Shown here: positions 5,126-19,845 of the stretch, in pieces
Numbering within the stretch: the stretch's first letter is position 1
Layout of the letters: each line of letters starts with the position of its first letter
From: an uncultured Poribacteria bacterium
GTDB taxonomy: Bacteria; Poribacteria; WGA-4E; WGA-3G
Length of the DNA: 64,000 nt
Direction: 5' to 3'
Assembly (NCBI GenBank): GCA_951812525.1
Contig: OX638316.1
Coordinates: 868,001-932,000, forward strand
Position numbers and translations under genes: made by a program
The notes under the pieces: generated by a model
Database searches by the model: none
What the model was told of the DNA's origin: nothing
The model's input: the letters and a program-made list of their open reading frames with translations, nothing else

Positions 5126-5845
5126 CTATCTTGGTCTGAATGTGCTACCTTTTTTTAGATTTCCCCAGGTGGTTGCAAGTTTGGTCCGCGGCTCGACAGG
5201 ACGTGGTTTTCCAGGACCGCCATTCTTGACATTTGGACCCGTGATCTCGACATCATCAAAATGTGCCTGTCCATCTGCAACAACGAGTCCGGCTTGCCCG
5301 CCTTTTAATGGATCATCGTCAATAGCCGTAAACACTTCGTCGTTGACTTTGAATTCAAGAGTGCCATCTTCGTGAATAGTGGCAGTCATCTCATACCACG
5401 TATCAATTTCGGCATCAAATGAATAGATGACGGGAAACCAATTGTCCCGAAGTGCCTTTACAAGTCGGACGGTGCCGAAAACGTAGTCTATAAAAAAGAG
5501 ATAACGGCTATCCTCCTCACCCCTATCGTGGAGTGTAAGTCCAATGCTTGGAGGTTCATTCTTGTCTTTTACTAATTTCGCACGACAAGAGAGAGAGTAG
5601 TTCTTCCATGTGAGTTCACCTGTGAGCCAGAGGCTCATAAAACCCGGCAGAAAGATTTCGCCGACGGCTTCACCGTCATCAATCCACCACTTTTCAACCT
5701 GTCGGTCAAGATTAAAAATTTTCCACTCACGGATATCTTTGTCCTCAAAATCGTCGCGCCATGTCCCCGCCAGGACAGGTTGCCATGCCTGTATTGAAAA
5801 GCAGGCGACCGTGATGATTGCGATTACTGGTATGAATTTTTTCAT
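5126..5845 (-). CDS. Secreted LamG/concanavalin-like domain protein
   Basis: 239 aa with a signal peptide (MKKFIPVIAIITVACFS, cleavage near VLAG). The mature part, from WRDDFEDKDIREWKIFN to HFDDVEITGPN, has the pattern of a laminin-G/DUF1080-like jelly-roll that binds or hydrolyses carbohydrate. No catalytic residues can be assigned. The tail KLATTWGNLKK resembles that of the LamG protein at 34723-35472 (KLTTVWARLKAN). Only 10 bp separate it from the upstream helicase gene stop, so it is probably the last gene of that transcript. Confidence 0.7.
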   Translation of the reverse strand: MKKFIPVIAIITVACFSIQAWQPVLAGTWRDDFEDKDIREWKIFNLDRQVEKWWIDDGEAVGEIFLPGFMSLWLTGELTWKNYSLSCRAKLVKDKNEPPSIGLTLHDRGEEDSRYLFFIDYVFGTVRLVKALRDNWFPVIYSFDAEIDTWYEMTATIHEDGTLEFKVNDEVFTAIDDDPLKGGQAGLVVADGQAHFDDVEITGPNVKNGGPGKPRPVEPRTKLATTWGNLKKGSTFRPR

Positions 5846-5855
5846 TTTCTTCTCC

Positions 5856-8800
5856 TTATGCTTCGGTGATTATACATTGTCCATCTGGATCCGCATAGGG
5901 GCAAGAGCAGCAATGGTTAAGATTTTTCCCATAATCTCCCCGCTGCAGCGCTGAGATTCGTTTTATCCATTGTTCCTGAATTTCCTGCAGCTGTGATGCC
6001 GTAAAACGCTTCTGCTCGCATCGATTGTGTTGAGAAAAAAAGAAATTAATTGTCAAAGTCGATTGGCTTGGATAACGCCGATGCAAGAGTAAGCTGTAAA
6101 GTTCCATTTCCAGACGGCAGTCATCTATATCCTGCACCTCACCGGTTTTGTAATTGATTACTTGCCAGTCTCCTGTCTCATCTCTAAAGAGTCTATCAAA
6201 TCCGGCATCAATGATATGCCCGTTAATATCGGCGTGAATTTGTTGATTGGTAGAGGTTTCGGATGCATTAAAAACAGTTTCTCCGAGTTCAGAATTAAGA
6301 AAATTATTCGCATGCATACGAAACGCCGGTTCTGATCCGTTGGTTACCTCAGGATAGCTCTTGGATACCTGATCAATCAGTAGGTCAAGATTTTCTGCAT
6401 CTGAGCGGCGTCTGATTCGTGAGAGCGTGTAGCGGATCGCAGCGTCCACCTCATCCGAATCGGCCTCCCCTCGTCCATTCACTGGAATCTGCAACTCATT
6501 TTCCAATTGATATCGTAGCGGACACCGCGCATAGTTCGCAAGCTCCTCTACAGAGAAGGCTGTAGGAACTTCAGTTGGTTCCAATTCTGATGGGATAAAC
6601 TCCGGAAATTCGACAGACGTTGTTTCATCGGAAGCTTCATCGGTAGCAATAATGTTTTCAAGTGGTCGGTTGGTATCAGAAAACACTTCGAGTGTGAAAG
6701 GTAGGTTTGACAAATTGTCTTCTTCACCGATGCTGAGATGTTTATGAAGCCATTCGAGCATCTGCCGCGGTTTGCCCGTGTCTGATAACGTTCCTGATAA
6801 AATGAGCCGATCGCGGGCACGTGTTGCCCCAACATAAAATAAACGTTTCTTTTCGGCATTTTCTTTTTTTCTTGATCGGTCTTTCATGTGTGAAACGATG
6901 CGAGGTTCAGTTTTTCTGTAATCCTTATCAGGATTAAGAGGACTAAAACCGATCCCGAAGATCTCATCAATGAAAGGCTCTCTATCGCTTTGCCCGCCGC
7001 GATCCAGACATGGAAGGATCACGACCGGAAATTGAAGCCCTTTAGCGGCATGGATTGTCATGATTTGGACCGCGCCGCTGTCTGCGTCAATCGGTGCTTG
7101 CCCTTCACGAGGCTCTTCGGTAATTAAGATATCCAGAAATTCGATGAAATCTGGAAGTATTCGCCTACTTTCATCTCCGTCAAAGTTTCTCGCGAGTTCT
7201 AAGAGTTTTTGATAGTTTGCCCACCGTTGCTGTCCCTGCTTCCCGGTTTGCAACGTTCCAATCATTCCTGTTTCATTAACGATGGTTAAGATGAGTTGGT
7301 TTACAGACATACGGTGCGCAATCTGGATGTGTCTTTTTAGGATGTCTATAGCGTTTCTGAGATTATCAGAAGGTGCTCGGTACGCTTCCGCTTTGTCCCA
7401 GAAGTCTGTTCCTTCTTGTTGTGAAATTTCATATAGCTCAGTATCGGATATACCGAAGGCGGGCCCCCGAAGGACTCCGATGAGAGAGGTCTGTTTTTTT
7501 TCTGGTGTGTCAAGGAAGTTAAGGTAATTCCAGATGTCGTAGATTTCCTGTCTTTGATAGAAACCGATGCCACCTGTGGTAAGGTAAGGAATATCTCTCT
7601 CAAGTAAGGCGTGCTCAATATCAGGGAGATGTCTTCTGCTGCGGATCAGTATGGCAATGTCGCCATAGGCAATCGGACGTTCCGATTCCTTTCCATCCTC
7701 GCCCCGCACCGACACACTCTCTTTTCCGATTTTCATATTTTTGATATGGTGAGCGATAAGAGCGTATTCGTTTGCTGCGTCGTCGCCCCTTGTTCCCAAA
7801 AGAATCTGGACAGCACCGTTTGTACTTGTGCCTCGCGCTTTGATAAGAGATTCATAGGGCACTTCAAAATCACTTTCGTTCCCGTTACCCATCAAACGCT
7901 CGAAAAAATAATTGACGAACTCAATAACATTGTGAAGGGATCGGAAATTCTCTTGTAGGGGGATATTCTCACCTCCGGCATCGGTGAGCTCTCGCTGTGT
8001 TTTTTTAAATACACGGACATCAGCACCGCGAAATGCATAAATACTCTGTTTCGGATCACCGACAATGAAAAGTTTTGCGTTCTTGAGATCGTTTGTGAGC
8101 AGCATTACCAAGTCGTACTGTAATTTGTTTGTGTCCTGATATTCATCTACCATATAGTACTTGTAGCGTTTTACTAATTCTTGTCGGATTTCTGTGTTGT
8201 CTTGGAGTAAGGTACGGGTTTTCAGCTGCAGGTCATTGAAATCAAGTTTGCCTTGGGAAAACTTGGCAGTTTGATAGGCGTTGGCGATTTTTTGGTAGAG
8301 CGTGAGCAAGTCACGGGTTGTGCTAAGCAGAAAATCGTCATCTGTTTCATCCCCCGCCTCAACAACGGGAGTGGTTTTAATCTTTTCCACAGCCGATACC
8401 AGAAAGTCGATTTCGGTGTCAATGTCCGTTGTTTTAACCCTTCTGCCGAGAAAATCGTTTTTTGCGATACTACCGGTCTTCGTTGTAATTAGATCTGCGA
8501 TTTTTTTTAGCACGCCCATCACTTCAGGTAAGTCGGGATCTTTCTCAGGTAACGCTTCTAATTTGTGAACTAAAGGTGTAACTGATATAGCATTTTTGCC
8601 CTTCGCACGCTGCAAAACAGTATTTAAGCATTGGATGAATTTGGCAACATCGCCCTCCGACATTAATTCGGCGCGAATAATTTGTTCCCAAGCGTCCGGC
8701 AACTGTGCATGGTGCTGATTGCCATAAACATCCCTGATGAGACGCTCAATTGTATCGCGCTGGTTGACCATCGTGGAAAAAAGGTCTTCCAGTTTCTGCC

Positions 8801-12850: not shown

Positions 12851-15466
12851 TTAAGGCACTACAGACCTGGCACAACGGAAACCGGTATTTCCCCATCGCA
12901 CATGTGAATCAGTTTCGCGACGACTGGCAATCCATACACTCCGCGGCCCATCGTTCCATGAAGCCCCACGTGATACACGCAGTTTATTAATATCTATAAT
13001 ATTACTTTTTTTATTTTTTATAATAATATCAGCAACCGGATTACGATAAGGGGAATTCACATAGAAATTTTTGTCATACGCATCAAAGCACCATTCCCAG
13101 ACGTTTCCTGCCATGTCGTATAAACCATACTCATTTGGTGGATAACTGCCAACCGGTGCAGTGAATGCATAACCGTCGTCAATATTTTTGTCCGCGTAAT
13201 TATCCTCAGTGATCCATCCTCTGCCCCAAACTTCGCTCAGACTTTTATCCGCAAAATTGCACTGTGTCCCATCCAGTTCGGCGTTGCCCCACGGATGCTC
13301 TTTCCCAACCAAACCACCTCTCGCAGCTTTTTCCCACTCCGCTTCAGTCGGTAGGCGTTTACCTGCCCATTTTGCATACGCCAGCACATCATGCCAACTC
13401 ACACCCACAACAGGATGCCGATCTATTGGAGAATACTTAGAAATATCAAGTAAAGGACGATGCCCAGTGGCACGAACAAATTGATTGTATTGTCCAAGGG
13501 TCACCTCGTGTGCGTCCATATAGAACGCATCAACATAGACTGTATGTGCAGGAGTCGTAGAGGACGTGTAAACAGTCCCTGGACCGCTTCCCATCTGAAA
13601 CTCACCAGCAGGGATTAACATCATTGGTGCTCCATCATTTCCAAGAATCGTCTGTGGCATATTTGAAGAAGATGATCGCGCTTCCTCGTTTAGAGTGAAG
13701 TCATTTTCAATAATCGTTTGTGGAGCATCGGGTTTTACTTTAGATAGGACAGATTGCCCTGTCCGCAATAAACGTGCATTACCAAGTATCCAGTGATCGC
13801 AGTGAAGACCATCACCTCCATCAGTCACCCGTATCGTAATCGTCTCGGCATTAGAAGGGATATTAAATGTGACATGTAGAGGTTCAAACACTCTTATCCT
13901 ACCTGAATTATATACTACTATATCATCAACGAGACACATTAATTCTACAGTTTCTATACATGGATTAGGTGTAATTAAATAGCCATCAAATTTAGAATGC
14001 TCACCACCACTTATATCATAAACGATTTCGCTTTCAGCATGTGAGTAAATCCACTGATTAAATCTATTAACATAGGACCCAGAGAAACCAGCAGGTGGTT
14101 CGGTAGGTTGTTCTTCTCTTGTTTTTTCCCAGAACCACCCATTCCAACCACTCCACTCGCTCATATTATTTATTGGAACAAGAGTTTCCGAGTCATCAGA
14201 TGTCAGCGAGAGATATGTTACGTTTCCCTCGTCAATCTGGACATCATTCATAGGCTTAGGTTGCGGGACGTTGGGTTCCCATTTTAGCGACATAGATTGT
14301 TCTGTCATCTGGTCTAATCGAACATCCCAAGGAAACTGCTGTCCACCTTTTAGTACTATTCTTCTAACACGGCTTTTGTAACCTGAAAGTTCCAGTCCCA
14401 CATTTACTTGCTTTTCACGCATCACACCGGTGTCAATCTGGTAACTACGCAACGGCGTTACCCCGATAAAAACACCATCAATGTAGATTGCTGCACCGCT
14501 CGGCGTGCTGCTTATGTTCAACACAGCTACCGTATCCAACTCAACTCCACCATTCGCACCCCCATTCTGTCCACTTTGAGAAAGCACAAACACAAAATCG
14601 CCGGTGTTTAGCTGCTGATCGTGGATTTTCCCGTGTTGTGGGTGTTGTCCTTCAGAGAACTTAGGTACAGTTCTGTATAAGTAATCCCCCAATTCAACAC
14701 CAGTCAAGTAACCATCCGGCGTTGGTTCCTCAACTCGACCCTCAAGCAGATTCAAAAATGCCTTCTTAAACTCGCTTCTGCCTGGCATGGGTTCATCTGC
14801 ACGTCCAGCAGTGATAAATTGACGCACTGGATTTTTAATTCGATCTGTGATGTCCGGGGGTGTCACCTTGTTTCTGAGATTGAGGATTGTACCAGAGAAA
14901 CAACTATCAAACATGAATAATACATGCTTAGCGTGAATCTTCTTTGAATCTGATACGAACTTAACCATATCCACACTATAGAGATCGAACTCAGCTTCAT
15001 TCTCTGGATGTGGGGTATCAAGCATCACAAGGTAACCGAGGTCTTCATCGGTCACCGATTTCGTCGTGTAGCCATGGCCAGCATAGTAGAACAGGAGCCG
15101 ATTATCTTTATCTTTGCCTGATTTATAGATAAACTCCGAAAACGCTTTGTTAAACTCAGCTTTTGTCACATCTACCTTCAGTGTCACATTGAACCCGCGG
15201 CGTTCGAGAACTTCTGCCACTTCCCTGACATCATTCAGTGCACCTATGAGTGGATTCCAACCGTTCTTCGCTGGATAGGATCCATTTCCGATAACGAGTG
15301 CGTAGGAATCCTTATAGAGGGAGAGTTCCGCTCCATCTTCAGTGCGAACGATAACCTGCATGCCACGTTGTGGGAACAACTCTGAAACAGTGAGGAGTAT
15401 AACAGCACTGCAGAAGATAGTAAAAAATAGAAATAGCGATACTTTTTTCACGGATATGATAAACAT
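12851..15466 (-). CDS. Caspase-PEGA-NPCBM-SUMF1 multidomain protein
   Basis: 871 aa with an N-terminal membrane or signal segment (residues 7-28). A caspase/metacaspase-like peptidase domain (about 50-295) has both catalytic residues visible: His131 in YYAGHG and Cys189 in FDSCFSG. A PEGA domain follows (about 315-385; STPSGAAIYIDG), then an NPCBM-like carbohydrate-binding module (about 435-567; ending HCDHWILGNARL). A SUMF1/FGE-like domain completes it (about 613-871; MLIPAGEFQMGS, RLPTEAEWEKAARGG, GNVWEWC). The SUMF1 part lacks the FGE catalytic cysteines. An extracytoplasmic protease with sugar or peptide recognition modules is plausible. Target unknown. Monocistronic by spacing. Confidence 0.88.
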   Translation of the reverse strand: MFIISVKKVSLFLFFTIFCSAVILLTVSELFPQRGMQVIVRTEDGAELSLYKDSYALVIGNGSYPAKNGWNPLIGALNDVREVAEVLERRGFNVTLKVDVTKAEFNKAFSEFIYKSGKDKDNRLLFYYAGHGYTTKSVTDEDLGYLVMLDTPHPENEAEFDLYSVDMVKFVSDSKKIHAKHVLFMFDSCFSGTILNLRNKVTPPDITDRIKNPVRQFITAGRADEPMPGRSEFKKAFLNLLEGRVEEPTPDGYLTGVELGDYLYRTVPKFSEGQHPQHGKIHDQQLNTGDFVFVLSQSGQNGGANGGVELDTVAVLNISSTPSGAAIYIDGVFIGVTPLRSYQIDTGVMREKQVNVGLELSGYKSRVRRIVLKGGQQFPWDVRLDQMTEQSMSLKWEPNVPQPKPMNDVQIDEGNVTYLSLTSDDSETLVPINNMSEWSGWNGWFWEKTREEQPTEPPAGFSGSYVNRFNQWIYSHAESEIVYDISGGEHSKFDGYLITPNPCIETVELMCLVDDIVVYNSGRIRVFEPLHVTFNIPSNAETITIRVTDGGDGLHCDHWILGNARLLRTGQSVLSKVKPDAPQTIIENDFTLNEEARSSSSNMPQTILGNDGAPMMLIPAGEFQMGSGPGTVYTSSTTPAHTVYVDAFYMDAHEVTLGQYNQFVRATGHRPLLDISKYSPIDRHPVVGVSWHDVLAYAKWAGKRLPTEAEWEKAARGGLVGKEHPWGNAELDGTQCNFADKSLSEVWGRGWITEDNYADKNIDDGYAFTAPVGSYPPNEYGLYDMAGNVWEWCFDAYDKNFYVNSPYRNPVADIIIKNKKSNIIDINKLRVSRGASWNDGPRSVWIASRRETDSHVRWGNTGFRCARSVVP

Positions 15467-15581: not shown

Positions 15582-16442
15582 CTATACCATTGAAATAGCC
15601 GCATATTCATCAAGTAAATCTCTCAAAATATTTGCCTTGTCAAGGATCTCGTGACTCTCAAAGTTACTTATCTCAAACAGACGTGGCAACTGGTCATAGA
15701 GTTCTGGTAACTCCAAAATCTCTACAATCTGTTCTCGGATCCATTTGTCGTAAGCGATGGGGTAGGTGCGACGCGCAATAAAGAGTGCTTGTAAGAATTC
15801 ACGGAAAGCATCGTAGAACCGATGAAAACACTGAAAATGGAGTCCTCGTTCAACATAGAGCGGGATATGGTCAAGGTTGTTGAGACAATACTTCCGCACT
15901 ATCAACAACCGCTCACGCCGCAAGCTCTCATCGTAATAAGGCATCCACTTCGCCTTGAGTTCAGCGAAGTAACTGCTTTTCTGATAGAGCGGAACACTAT
16001 AAACAAGGTAATTTCCAATCACAAGTTCAAATTCGTCAGGTCCACCTGTCCAGCCGCGAGATGTCGGGACGAAGTGTCCATCGCTGAACTCTAAATCGAC
16101 GTGTGCGTATTTTCCGACAGCGGCGAGTTTTTGGAAAATAGGGTCAGTTGTATAAAATTCGTCCCACGCGTCTTGGATGCCTACCTGTGAGGCAGCCATA
16201 ATTTCCGGCTTGCCGAGGACAAGCATATCCAGACAACTGTCCCGACTTGCCTTGCTACGAGCGCATGAACAGATTAGACAAACAGCGTCAATTTCTGGAA
16301 TTGTGGTGAAGAACTCGACAATCGCTTCAGCTGCGCGCTGATGCTCAGGGGTTGGATAGGGGTTCATAGCTATTGGTGTGTTCATGAATCCATTTGCAAC
16401 CGATTGGGCTGCAGAGGTATGCAAAATATGTGATATTTCCAT
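15582..16442 (-). CDS. Degenerate nucleotidyltransferase-like protein
   Basis: 286 aa from the ATG at 16440-16442. A longer frame to 16517 reaches back through a promoter for the opposite gene and is less likely. Residues 58-72 (CSCARSKASRDSCLD) follow the nucleotidyltransferase GSxARG..SDLD pattern, but Gly is replaced by Cys58 and the first Asp of DxD by Cys70, so catalysis is doubtful. The C-terminal half is helical, with a terminal segment starting LRDLLDEYAA. It may be an inactive member of the antibiotic-resistance or MNT-type NTases. Codons for residues 18-37 lie in a 58-bp sequence repeated at 17153-17210. Confidence 0.6.
   Translation of the reverse strand: MEISHILHTSAAQSVANGFMNTPIAMNPYPTPEHQRAAEAIVEFFTTIPEIDAVCLICSCARSKASRDSCLDMLVLGKPEIMAASQVGIQDAWDEFYTTDPIFQKLAAVGKYAHVDLEFSDGHFVPTSRGWTGGPDEFELVIGNYLVYSVPLYQKSSYFAELKAKWMPYYDESLRRERLLIVRKYCLNNLDHIPLYVERGLHFQCFHRFYDAFREFLQALFIARRTYPIAYDKWIREQIVEILELPELYDQLPRLFEISNFESHEILDKANILRDLLDEYAAISMV
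16334..16391. repeat. 58-bp perfect direct repeat, copy 1
   Basis: This stretch is identical to 17153-17210 (offset 819 bp). Copy 1 lies inside the nucleotidyltransferase-like gene, in frame. Together the copies bracket the hicBA pair. Confidence 0.9.
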
Positions 16443-16451
16443 CAAAATTTC

Positions 16452-16481
16452 TTGACTTGAGTGTTCAAAAGCATATATACT
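16452..16481 (+). promoter_or_regulatory. Promoter for hicBA
   Basis: -35 TTGACT (16452-16457), 18-bp spacer, -10 TATACT (16476-16481). It lies 63 bp upstream of the HicB start and overlaps the 5' end of the divergent NTase-like gene. Confidence 0.6.
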
Positions 16482-16544
16482 ATATTTCTGTGTATACTTT
16501 ACCAATACTCGAAACAATCCTAACGCTGTAAATACGGAGGCTGC

Positions 16545-16829
16545 ATGAAAAATTTAGTGATAACGGAAGAAATTTGGAAAGAAGGCACTATGTACACTGC
16601 TTACTGTCCAGAGTTAGATGTTGTGAGTTGCGGAAGGAGCATTGATGAAGCAGGAAAAAATCTCCTTGAGGCTATCGAAATTCAATTAGAAGAAACTGCT
16701 CGACTCGGAACACTCAAGACATTTTTAGAAGATGCAGGTTACGACCTAAATACTTCACAACCGACCCTTCAACTCGATAAACAGGTAGTTGCCTTTAACC
16801 AACGTACCATAGCCCTTGGTGCCCTTTAA
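16545..16829 (+). CDS. hicB: HicB-family antitoxin
   Basis: 94 aa with the partially degraded RNase H-like fold of HicB: CPELDVVSCGRSIDEAGKNLLEA is the family core. HicB neutralises HicA and usually represses its own promoter. The TAA stop overlaps the hicA start as TAATG, indicating coupling. A GGAGG site (16535-16539) sits 5 bp before the ATG. No extra DNA-binding domain is obvious in the short C-terminus, so any autoregulation would need the HicAB complex. The pair is the only plus-strand block in this part of the window. Confidence 0.88.
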   Translation: MKNLVITEEIWKEGTMYTAYCPELDVVSCGRSIDEAGKNLLEAIEIQLEETARLGTLKTFLEDAGYDLNTSQPTLQLDKQVVAFNQRTIALGAL

Positions 16830-17059
16830 TGCCGAGACTCTCGCCAACAGACTGGCGTACCCAAGTTAAGATTTTTGAAAAATTCGGGTGTCACTATGTC
16901 CGACAAAAAGGAGTACATCTCATTTATCACTATCCTGATGCCAAACGTGCTGTGGTCATCCCTCGCTATGATGAAGTGCCGGTTACCATCATTACCAATA
17001 ACATGCGAACTGTCAATATGAGCAGAACGGAATACTTTCAACTGCTCGCAGAAGTTTAA
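16829..17059 (+). CDS. hicA: HicA-family mRNA interferase toxin
   Basis: 76 aa, the usual size of HicA, a dsRNA-binding-fold ribonuclease that cleaves mRNA. The expected catalytic His is His30 in KGVHLIYHYP, and the domain ends with the LQ-like NMSRTEYFQLL segment. A typical HicA has GSH where this has GVH, so activity should be tested rather than assumed. The start codon overlaps the hicB stop by one base. Confidence 0.87.
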   Translation: MPRLSPTDWRTQVKIFEKFGCHYVRQKGVHLIYHYPDAKRAVVIPRYDEVPVTIITNNMRTVNMSRTEYFQLLAEV

Positions 17060-17152
17060 TTTCCCCAATACAACACTTCTTTTTTCCAAACCACGAATTT
17101 ATACACCTCAACCCCACCGAATGCTATACGCACATTCGGCGTTGATCCCTTA

Positions 17153-17210
17153 CGCGCTGATGCTCAGGGGTTGGATAGGGGTTCATAGCTATTGGTGTGT
17201 TCATGAATCC
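17153..17210. repeat. 58-bp perfect direct repeat, copy 2
   Basis: Identical to 16334-16391. Here it overlaps the 3' end of the cytochrome-TPR gene, encoding its last residues (HEHTNSYEPLSNP) in another frame from that used in the NTase-like gene. Confidence 0.9.
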
Positions 17211-19845
17211 GTTGACGTTCGCGATTGACATCTGGATCTGCTCGGCGAGGGATACCGGTGATTGCATCGACGGATTCATCGGCTTTAAAGCGGAGGTAGA
17301 GTTTCTGCGATTTCGCAGCGAGCGATGGATTCTTGAGGGCACGATAGCAGCGCATCATGTTGTAGTGTGCGTCCAAATCTTCTGGATCAACGGTAAGCGT
17401 CTTCTGGAATTCAGTCAGCGCGGCTTCGTAGTTGCGCTTCAGGAAATGCATGCGTCCAAGTTTATTGCGGACACGGGTGTCACGCGGAAATTGTGCAGCG
17501 GCGTGTTGGAGGTGCTCGATTGCTGTGTCGTAATTGCCGTAAGTCTCCTGAACGAGCGCATAAAAGTAGTGAACCTTGGCGCGATGTGGATTTTCAGGTG
17601 GTAGGGTCTTCTGGATCTCAAACGCTTTTTCGAGCATCGCTTCCGCACCCTGCATATCTCCTTCCTCAATCCGGCACCGTGCTATGTTCACCCACCCATC
17701 AAGGTATGCGGGATCTATCTCGGTCACCTTCGAGAACGCAATCTGTGCGGCTTTCAGGTCGCCTTGTAAAAGAAGTCCGATGCCGTAGTCGTTCCAACGC
17801 TCACGTGCATTTCCAGACTGTGACAGAGCGACGACTTCGGTTGACAGCACAGGGACTGTGTCTACTACTTTTAAGGTTGCTTTTTCAGATGCCATGACGA
17901 CAATTGGTAGGTTCGGAATCGCCTTGATTTTCCCAGCGACATCTGAGGTATCACCCGTCCAGACCCACTTCCCGTTATCATAGCTTTTATCCACCTGAAA
18001 ATCGGTGTCTTCTGGATCGCGCACACCGGCATAAGCCCATTGTGTATGCCACCAGTTGAATTTGCGGTAGTTAAGCTTCGCCTCCAGCGTTAGCATTTTT
18101 CCAGCATCGGGTGGGATTTCGAGTCGGTAACGGACGGTATCGGCCGCACCCGGTGGGATTGTATTTGAATAAAGTACAGTTCGGGCTGCCCAAGCGTTTC
18201 GTTTATTAATGAGGTTTCCGTGTTCATCGAGCATATAACCGCGGTAGAAATGTGCACCCGGATCGACAGGTCCATTTCCATCGGGTGCGGCAATTCTACC
18301 GTTCCAGAAGATGATTTTTCCGTTTTCATCGATGGCTTTCAGTTCCAACCAGATGTCAAAAGCATCAATTGTCCCAGCAGGGAAACGGTGCCCGACGTTC
18401 CGCGTGCGGACAACTACATCAACACGCGTGCTCTCGCCACGCGTAACTTCAACCCCGTTAGCCGGAATCGGCGCGCCATCTGCGAAGAAATCTAATGTGA
18501 CTGCTTCATTCTGTAGAAATTCCGTTACGGCTCTGAGTTGATCCGGATGCTGATTTACAAAAGGCAGTGCCGTGTTCGCAGCAGGAAAGCGGTGATTGTG
18601 AACCTTGCCGTTGATATTTCCTGCATCTGCAGAATCAACAAGTGGCATGTGGCAATCGACACACTTCTTCGCTTTTTCGGGATAATAGAAGGATAACGCG
18701 CCTTGGTGAGAAACACCACTTTTCTGCCACTGGTCATAGTCGTTAAAGCCGCGTATCCATCGGAAATTGTTAACCGGTTCATCCAGATGCACTTTATGAC
18801 AAGTTGAGCAGAATTCGGCAGTATTTTGACGATGGAACGGCTTGAGGAAACTCTTTTTGTGCGGTTCCGGGTCGAGTCGGATGAGGTAGTTGTGTAAATT
18901 GCGGATGACCGGATTATCGCTGGCAGCAATATCGTGAAGTGGCGGGTATTTGATTACATATCCGCTGTTGCCCATCGTATCTTTGACTTTCTCAATAGAA
19001 TGGCATGCTGTGCAGGCGAGTCCTGCTTGTGCAGCAGGCGTATGGAGATTCTCTCGAATAGGTCTGTCCATCACGCCGTTGAGGAGAATCGCAGGGTCGT
19101 GGCACCCTCCGCACCACTTAGAGGGCTGAATACCATTGACTTCTTGCATATAGATAATAGACTTTCGGTACCACTGGTTATTGAAGGAAGAAAAATGGTG
19201 TGCCGATTCGTTCCACTGCCGATAGATATCTGGATGGCACCCTTTTGTGGCACAGGTTTCGGATGTGAGAAAGAAATCGGTCGGAATCAGAGCACCTGTC
19301 TCGGTTTCGACGGACGCTGGGAAAAAGTGACCGGTTGTGCCACCCCCTTCCTCGTACATACTTGTGGGAGGTAGTGCGGGATTTTCGACGAGGTAGGTCT
19401 CATTCGGCAGATAGTGCTGCGTAAGGCGGGCACCAATCGGGAACAGGATAATGCCAATCAGTACTGCTATACCTACTTTTCTCAACGATGGAGTAAGCAG
19501 ATCGCCGTCTCGCAACAGATGAACGGAGAAAAGGAGGCTACCAGTGCCGACACTGACAATATGCGCGATGAGAAGCCAACGATACGGAGTTATCGCACCG
19601 ACAACCATCAGATAACCACCGGAAACGATACCGACGGCTATCCCGATAACGCCTATTCGTCCGAGCGTTGAGATCTGCCCAAACTGCTTATAGACATAAA
19701 CGCTGAACGGGAGTATCAGCACAATACCGAGTCCAACATGGAGCAGCACGTTAAAGATATAAAAGAGTGTCGGTTCGCCGAAACTAAATAGGTACGCGCT
19801 GTTTATGAGTAGAATGAGAAAGACAGATAAGGAAATTTTTCTCAC
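17164..19845 (-). CDS. Membrane multihaem cytochrome c with C-terminal TPR repeats
   Basis: 893 aa. The first ~150 residues contain about five transmembrane helices. The periplasmic part has five haem-binding motifs: one CX4CH (CATKGCH) and four CX2CH (CGGCH, CTACH, CSTCH, CVDCH). A beta-rich region follows (about 430-620), and then TPR repeats (from about 690; WVNIARCRIEEGDMQ, HYFYALVQETYGNY, RNKLGRMHFLKRNY). It probably passes electrons between the quinone pool and a periplasmic acceptor, with the TPRs holding a partner. The last dozen residues come from the 58-bp repeat, so the original stop may have been altered. Confidence 0.85.
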   Translation of the reverse strand: MRKISLSVFLILLINSAYLFSFGEPTLFYIFNVLLHVGLGIVLILPFSVYVYKQFGQISTLGRIGVIGIAVGIVSGGYLMVVGAITPYRWLLIAHIVSVGTGSLLFSVHLLRDGDLLTPSLRKVGIAVLIGIILFPIGARLTQHYLPNETYLVENPALPPTSMYEEGGGTTGHFFPASVETETGALIPTDFFLTSETCATKGCHPDIYRQWNESAHHFSSFNNQWYRKSIIYMQEVNGIQPSKWCGGCHDPAILLNGVMDRPIRENLHTPAAQAGLACTACHSIEKVKDTMGNSGYVIKYPPLHDIAASDNPVIRNLHNYLIRLDPEPHKKSFLKPFHRQNTAEFCSTCHKVHLDEPVNNFRWIRGFNDYDQWQKSGVSHQGALSFYYPEKAKKCVDCHMPLVDSADAGNINGKVHNHRFPAANTALPFVNQHPDQLRAVTEFLQNEAVTLDFFADGAPIPANGVEVTRGESTRVDVVVRTRNVGHRFPAGTIDAFDIWLELKAIDENGKIIFWNGRIAAPDGNGPVDPGAHFYRGYMLDEHGNLINKRNAWAARTVLYSNTIPPGAADTVRYRLEIPPDAGKMLTLEAKLNYRKFNWWHTQWAYAGVRDPEDTDFQVDKSYDNGKWVWTGDTSDVAGKIKAIPNLPIVVMASEKATLKVVDTVPVLSTEVVALSQSGNARERWNDYGIGLLLQGDLKAAQIAFSKVTEIDPAYLDGWVNIARCRIEEGDMQGAEAMLEKAFEIQKTLPPENPHRAKVHYFYALVQETYGNYDTAIEHLQHAAAQFPRDTRVRNKLGRMHFLKRNYEAALTEFQKTLTVDPEDLDAHYNMMRCYRALKNPSLAAKSQKLYLRFKADESVDAITGIPRRADPDVNRERQRIHEHTNSYEPLSNP

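Follow-up and report, generated by a model that had tools for sequence, protein, structure and literature searches.

Restriction-modification genes are known to insert with long and variable target duplications on the order of 100 bp, according to the accessible text of three articles (PMC3874152, PMC3031569, PMC1643837), all of which credit this insertion with long target duplication (ILTD) to earlier work by Nobusato et al. (2000) and Furuta et al. (2010). Toxin-antitoxin pairs are also thought to move on their own, by a mechanism that is unclear. In Microcystis aeruginosa PCC 7806, a ParE/ParD-like module adjoins the orthocaspase MaOC1 and is fenced by 152-bp direct repeats, as described in the available portion of PMC7935541. 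A search of the literature on hicAB and toxin-antitoxin repeats, with most subscription journals outside its coverage, listed no published account of the locus described here.

Here, we describe a hicBA pair that lies between two direct repeats in a 64,000-bp stretch of a Candidatus Poribacteria genome (the whole stretch is referred to as the window). In our preferred reading, to which we assign a probability of roughly 0.6, the repeats are a duplicated overlap of two genes, hicBA entered this site once, the copies later exchanged sequence, and crossing over between them deletes the pair. The comparison set consisted of 37 congeners (Candidatus Poribacteria), which together with the own genome give 38 genus genomes; compared genomes are denoted by G numbers. 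The features of the locus are as follows.

15582–16385, minus strand: NTase-like gene; 267 aa when counted from the ATG that lies within R1, with an open frame that extends to 311 aa
16334–16391: R1, repeat copy 1, at the start of the NTase-like gene and including TPR-derived sequence upstream of the second ATG; 58 of 58 bp shared with R2
16392–17152, plus strand: inter-repeat segment, missing from one-copy relatives, with hicB and hicA as its only plausible genes (ORF list)
16395–16446: spacer from R1 to the hicBA promoter, weakly alignable to the same-site locus of G033 and missing from G028 and G034
16452–16481, plus strand: promoter-like site ahead of hicBA (TTGACT-18-TATACT), which agrees with the consensus at 10 of 12 positions
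16545–16829, plus strand: hicB-like antitoxin gene, 94 aa, with weak PDB matches; its orthologues adjoin hicA in congeners
16829–17059, plus strand: hicA toxin gene, 76 aa, PF07927 HicA_toxin; its start overlaps the hicB stop
17060–17152: spacer from hicA to R2, alignable to the same-site hicBA loci of G028, G029, G016 and G005
17107–17158: short palindromic dispersed repeat, found elsewhere in the own genome and in many congeners
17153–17210: R2, repeat copy 2, with which the cytochrome-TPR gene natively ends (3' end with stop); 34 of 35 genus genomes have a like tail
17164–19845, minus strand: multihaem cytochrome/TPR gene, 893 aa, with Cytochrome_C554 and TPR domains

The first-pass annotation had reported perfect 58-bp direct repeats here, and R1 and R2 were indeed identical at all 58 positions; the pair reaches 61 bp with one mismatch, and the two starts are 819 bp apart. 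A genome-wide dispersed repeat could be ruled out, as the whole 5,062,467-bp single-contig genome contained only these two copies, and a chance origin was ruled out by 100 shuffles of the window, in which the 36-base core was expected 0.00 times. Direct repeats of at least 35 bp with a spacing of 300–2500 bp were also sought in 864 kb (two 400-kb blocks and the window, corresponding to 17% of the genome). R1/R2 was the sole pair in the window, and 24 other pairs were detected in the two blocks; among the five block pairs inspected, four were located in internal protein repeats (WD40, ankyrin, and leucine-rich) and one in tandem paralogues. R2 is abutted by the palindromic repeat at 17107–17158, approximately 40–50 bp in length (CCGAATG...CATTCGG), and similar pieces occur once more in the own genome and in many places in congeners.

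The frames given earlier to the two copies also agreed with the ORF list, in which copy 1 is in frame in the NTase-like gene and copy 2 forms the 3' end of the cytochrome-TPR gene. On the minus strand, R1 encodes the NTase start and reads MNTPIAMNPYPTPEHQR, and R2 holds the final TPR codons with their stop and a further 11 bp; the C-terminal end of the TPR protein is ERQRIHEHTNSYEPLSNP, directly followed by the stop. The NTase-like protein of the window showed a sub-threshold match to Polbeta, and 10 of 12 aligned NTase members, including that of the window, matched Polbeta at E values of up to 0.5 (best, 1.3e-9). Some NTase-like relatives read GSCAR...D-ID, but most read CSCAR...DSCLD and so have two extra residues between the putative active-site acidic positions; the activity of this family may be altered or lost. 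The NTase gene separates hicBA from another gene (12851–15466) with caspase-like, PEGA, NPCBM, and sulfatase-modifying-factor domains.

Between the repeats, HicA matched PF07927 HicA_toxin with 41.5 bits (cut-off 27). HicB had no match in Pfam, NCBIfam or PADLOC and was weakly similar to TTHA1756 (E 0.19) and to an Antitoxin HicB chain (E 0.56); the former, from Thermus, pairs with a HicA partner. PADLOC applied to the locus returned only a weak NTase match. Promoter-like sites numbered three in the region versus 2.1 in shuffles, and the hicBA promoter-like site is hence weak by itself. The ORF list contained no integrase or transposase gene between R1 and R2, and no terminal inverted repeats of the 16392–17152 segment were found. 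The pair is a putative working toxin-antitoxin system.

The origin of the repeat can be traced by comparison with relatives in which the two neighbouring genes are separate. In G063, which belongs to a sister genus, the TPR protein ends in HEHTNSYEP before the stop, and the NTase gene is found approximately 200 bp downstream with its own start, reading ...ASYPTIEHQNAAEA; in G049, the TPR and NTase genes are approximately 700 bp apart. Within the window's genus, the NTase start reads MN(P/H)YPTPEHQ... and directly follows the TPR-derived ATGAACC, which points to a deletion that fused both genes out of frame. This comparison shows that, in the ancestor of the genus, a deletion brought an early codon of the downstream NTase-like gene up against the cytochrome-TPR gene end, leaving one stretch that serves two frames. 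Such a single stretch, read in both frames as TPR end and NTase start, is observed in G024, G012, and G022. The last TPR codons are thus NTase codons in another frame, an out-of-frame fossil kept even where the NTase gene is gone. A TPR tail ending in P and the stop was present in 34 of the 35 genus genomes in which the TPR end was read, including the own genome (the exception was G021), and most genomes with this NTase-derived tail were without any NTase gene; R2 is therefore the native end of the TPR gene. An intact NTase gene was present in only 4 of the 38 genus genomes (own, G024, G034, and G028), and fragments were found in G012, G022, G013, and G033. In G017, G026, and G007, a short remnant of the NTase continues past the overlap, so that the fused state was seemingly once present there too. 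Since both own repeat copies contain the fusion point, the fusion preceded the duplication, and the 58-bp repeat is, as far as these sequences indicate, the former TPR/NTase gene overlap duplicated around hicBA.

A one-copy site, for which a comparison of sister genomes had been proposed, was found in three of them. The sister species G024 has a single overlap and no hicBA at this site, and the two database matches found in it share 56 bp, a single stretch being used by both genes. The one-copy product predicted for the window aligned with G024 over 401 bp without a gap (90.3%), and with G012 and G022 over 301 bp each, again without a gap (84.4 and 84.7%, respectively). The latter two genomes have the same one-copy layout as G024, with truncated NTase frames. 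The earlier suggestion that recombination between the copies would remove the module cleanly agrees with the alignment, in that the predicted product is that expected of a clean deletion and is gap-free against G024.

Other congeners carry the module at the same place. In G028 and G034, hicBA lies between two copies of the repeat (37 bp including a single mismatch in G028, and 39 bp in G034), of which copy 1 is cut short on meeting the hicBA promoter region. G033 and G013 retain hicB together with decayed NTase pieces, whereas in G029, G016, G005, and G010 the module adjoins the TPR end and the NTase is absent. Across the genus, HicA of the window's family was matched in 20 of 38 genomes, including a fragment (G028) and a distant match (G020), and the module was located in at least five places, namely beside the TPR gene, at the three sites listed below, and at a site occupied only in G023.

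Site B: G001, G012, G019, G011, G015, and G061, with a remnant in G003
Site C: G006, G018, G007, G009, and G004
Site D: G024, G035, and G031

In a tree of hicBA (23 rows), the nine same-site copies formed one side of a branch with support of 100/97. Sites B, D, and C were supported at 100/98, 100/100, and 93/88, respectively, and every tested group sorted by genomic site; within the limits of the tree, each such site was thus entered a single time. The spacers agreed with this grouping: the 3' spacer of the window matched those of G028, G029, G016, and G005 with z values of 5.2 to 8.5 (0 of 200 shuffles). The same held for the 5' spacer. Spacer matches to other hicBA sites were weaker (z up to 3.3), and the match between the own and G033 spacers was weak (3 of 500 shuffles). 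The TPR tree comprised 37 rows, that is, 33 of the 38 genus genomes, G063, and three outgroups; G030 was partial, and G004, G013, G035, G060, and G061 were left out. In this tree, hicBA-bearing genomes fell into three subclades, and G024 was sister to the own genome (SH-aLRT 99). The simplest reading would be one early entry of hicBA at the site followed by repeated losses, one gene being a thin basis for it. G017 and G026 share an NTase remnant that is absent from G008 and G023, the nearest relatives of G017, and homologous exchange between species at the locus is thus likely. Alternatively, G024 could keep the ancestral one-copy state, with hicBA alleles spreading between species by recombination.

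These comparisons lead to the following proposed course of events. After the fusion, hicBA would have entered the junction once, before the genus diversified, and duplicated the shared stretch, as a result of which both neighbouring genes kept complete ends. The own repeat and that of G024 differ at 7 of 58 positions; for own copies that diverged independently after the split from G024, finding 0 of 58 differences would have a P of about 0.0006. In the first 38 bp, R1 and R2 differ at 3 positions in G028, 6 in G034, and 26 in G033 (by ungapped placement; R1 of G033 may be off). Given that the hicBA tree groups by site, which indicates a single and old entry here, the perfect identity in the window is more likely due to later exchange than to recent insertion, and the own copies probably exchanged sequence after parting from G024. 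The natural one-copy allele further suggests that crossing over between the copies would delete hicBA and restore a G024-like overlap, a loss that the addiction property of hicBA may delay. The first-pass annotation had described an insertion or duplication that carried the toxin-antitoxin pair; an insertion with duplication does appear to bracket hicBA, but the nature of the repeat as a gene overlap and the age of the insertion had been missed.

The main competitor is a recent insertion, in which hicBA entered a G024-like one-copy site after the G024 split and duplicated 58 bp. The 58/58 identity and the one-copy sister are both what such an event would leave, and an older duplication without exchange has the P of about 0.0006 given above. 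However, the window hicBA falls within the same-site clade (support 100/97), both spacers are common to the window and other same-site hicBA loci, and the two-copy layout recurs in G028 and G034, which makes this explanation rather unlikely. Because same-site hicBA copies form one group across three subclades, perfect identity is no sign of a fresh insertion, and the site-specific clade together with the shared spacers favours exchange between the copies over re-entry of hicBA into a one-copy site. It is also possible that an incoming hicBA allele from a relative recombined through the flanks.

Direct repeats that restore the 3' end of a gene are typical of integrated islands, and the window repeats resemble them in this respect. 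The 58 bp could accordingly be attL/attR or a target-site duplication, with an integrase or transposase acting in trans; such an origin is very improbable, as no gene of either type lies between the repeats, the ends lack inverted repeats, and the repeats at other sites (108 and 149 bp) are unrelated in sequence. Variation among sites in repeat length and divergence (61 bp at 98%, 108 bp, and 149 bp at 87%) would suit a Campbell-type event, in which a DNA circle bearing hicBA plus part of the target underwent a single recombination with the chromosome and the repeat length equals the shared piece, but the circle would need to have carried the target already, and we regard this as improbable. 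An assembly artefact is the least credible explanation, with next to no weight, because the separately assembled congeners G028 and G034 have two copies at the same place; the copies of the window, moreover, serve two different intact frames.

Long direct repeats were also sought at other hicBA loci by comparing, at each of 23 loci, the 500 bp preceding hicB with the 500 bp following hicA. Five loci (window, G028, G034, G001, and G007) scored between 53 and 203, and all 2169 control windows drawn from these 23 loci stayed at or below 44; the other 18 loci showed no flank repeat, with scores not above 28. The repeats of G007 (108 bp) and G001 (149 bp, 87%, versus 61 bp and 98% for the window pair) are unrelated to the window repeat in sequence. 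The G001 case is ambiguous because its repeats lie at the 5' ends of tandem neighbouring paralogues, so that another origin is possible. In G007, hicBA is located at a different site (locus L086, about 5300–6210) with a 108-bp duplicate of the beginning of a gene on one side and the complete gene on the other; judging from its letters, we take this gene to be hsdM. A clean target duplication of approximately 40 bp at site B was considered and rejected, being entangled with tandem paralogues and with a second promoter copy more than 3 kb away (G061 and G001). Among the matches listed, a flank-repeat score of 45 was reached by 0 of 30 loci with other HicA genes and 0 of 30 ParE loci. Nine of these sixty toxin-antitoxin loci were shorter than 2.8 kb and the control was noisy, as 17 of 280 random own-genome windows reached 50; these counts do not support the idea that toxin-antitoxin loci of the genus carry such repeats as a rule.

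The 18 near-full HicA copies (counting G015, with a stop, and G029, frameshifted) are distributed over five sites in 18 different genomes of the 38. Random placement would give approximately 2.7 genomes with two copies, and the probability of none is 0.02 when relatedness is ignored. Remnant second hicBA copies were found in G061 and G003, and G024, without hicBA at the TPR site, has hicA at another site. Tentatively, the hicBA family may be a transposase-free selfish unit that reaches new sites via ILTD, leaves the neighbours intact by duplicating their common stretch, and persists in each genome as a single working copy, since another copy would relieve addiction and then decay. A mobile unit with shared ends was rejected, since only about 530 bp were alignable between sites and no common end sequence was present. 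At sites C and E, the module closely follows another gene. ParE-type toxin matches were observed downstream of the TPR gene, at a distance of approximately 0.6 kb in G001 (C49:61136–61378) and 1.2 kb in G018 (C1:1425083–1425325), and this place, occupied by hicBA in other congeners, may be a landing spot for toxin-antitoxin pairs.

Compared with known systems, the window pair resembles HicBA type II systems (e.g., Thermus TTHA1756) in its HicA domain and hicB-hicA operon, but its HicB is short and matches no curated family. As in Microcystis, a toxin-antitoxin pair is fenced by two identical direct repeats, as far as the available portion of PMC7935541 describes that module. The Microcystis toxin, however, is of another family, its repeats hold a 16-bp inverted repeat, and the same portion of PMC7935541 reports no one-copy site or gene overlap. 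A caspase-domain gene is near both modules, but that of the window (12851–15466) is separated from hicBA by the NTase gene, whereas MaOC1 adjoins the Microcystis module according to the same source. The locus also resembles ILTD, which, in the accessible text of the articles cited above, likewise combines an addictive gene pair, no transposase, direct repeats of tens to more than about 100 bp, and one copy in insert-free relatives. In contrast to ILTD, the duplicated target here is a two-gene overlap with the ends of both neighbours intact, the event in the window is old, the copies seem to exchange sequence, and the cargo is a hicBA toxin-antitoxin pair instead of a restriction-modification unit; because of this cargo, we describe the locus as working like ILTD and not as a member. 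The locus offers a filled site, a gap-free one-copy sister site, an unfused outgroup, and other sites of the same module. Overall, it extends the mobility pattern of restriction-modification genes to a toxin-antitoxin pair, and shows an insertion landing on a gene overlap with neither gene broken.
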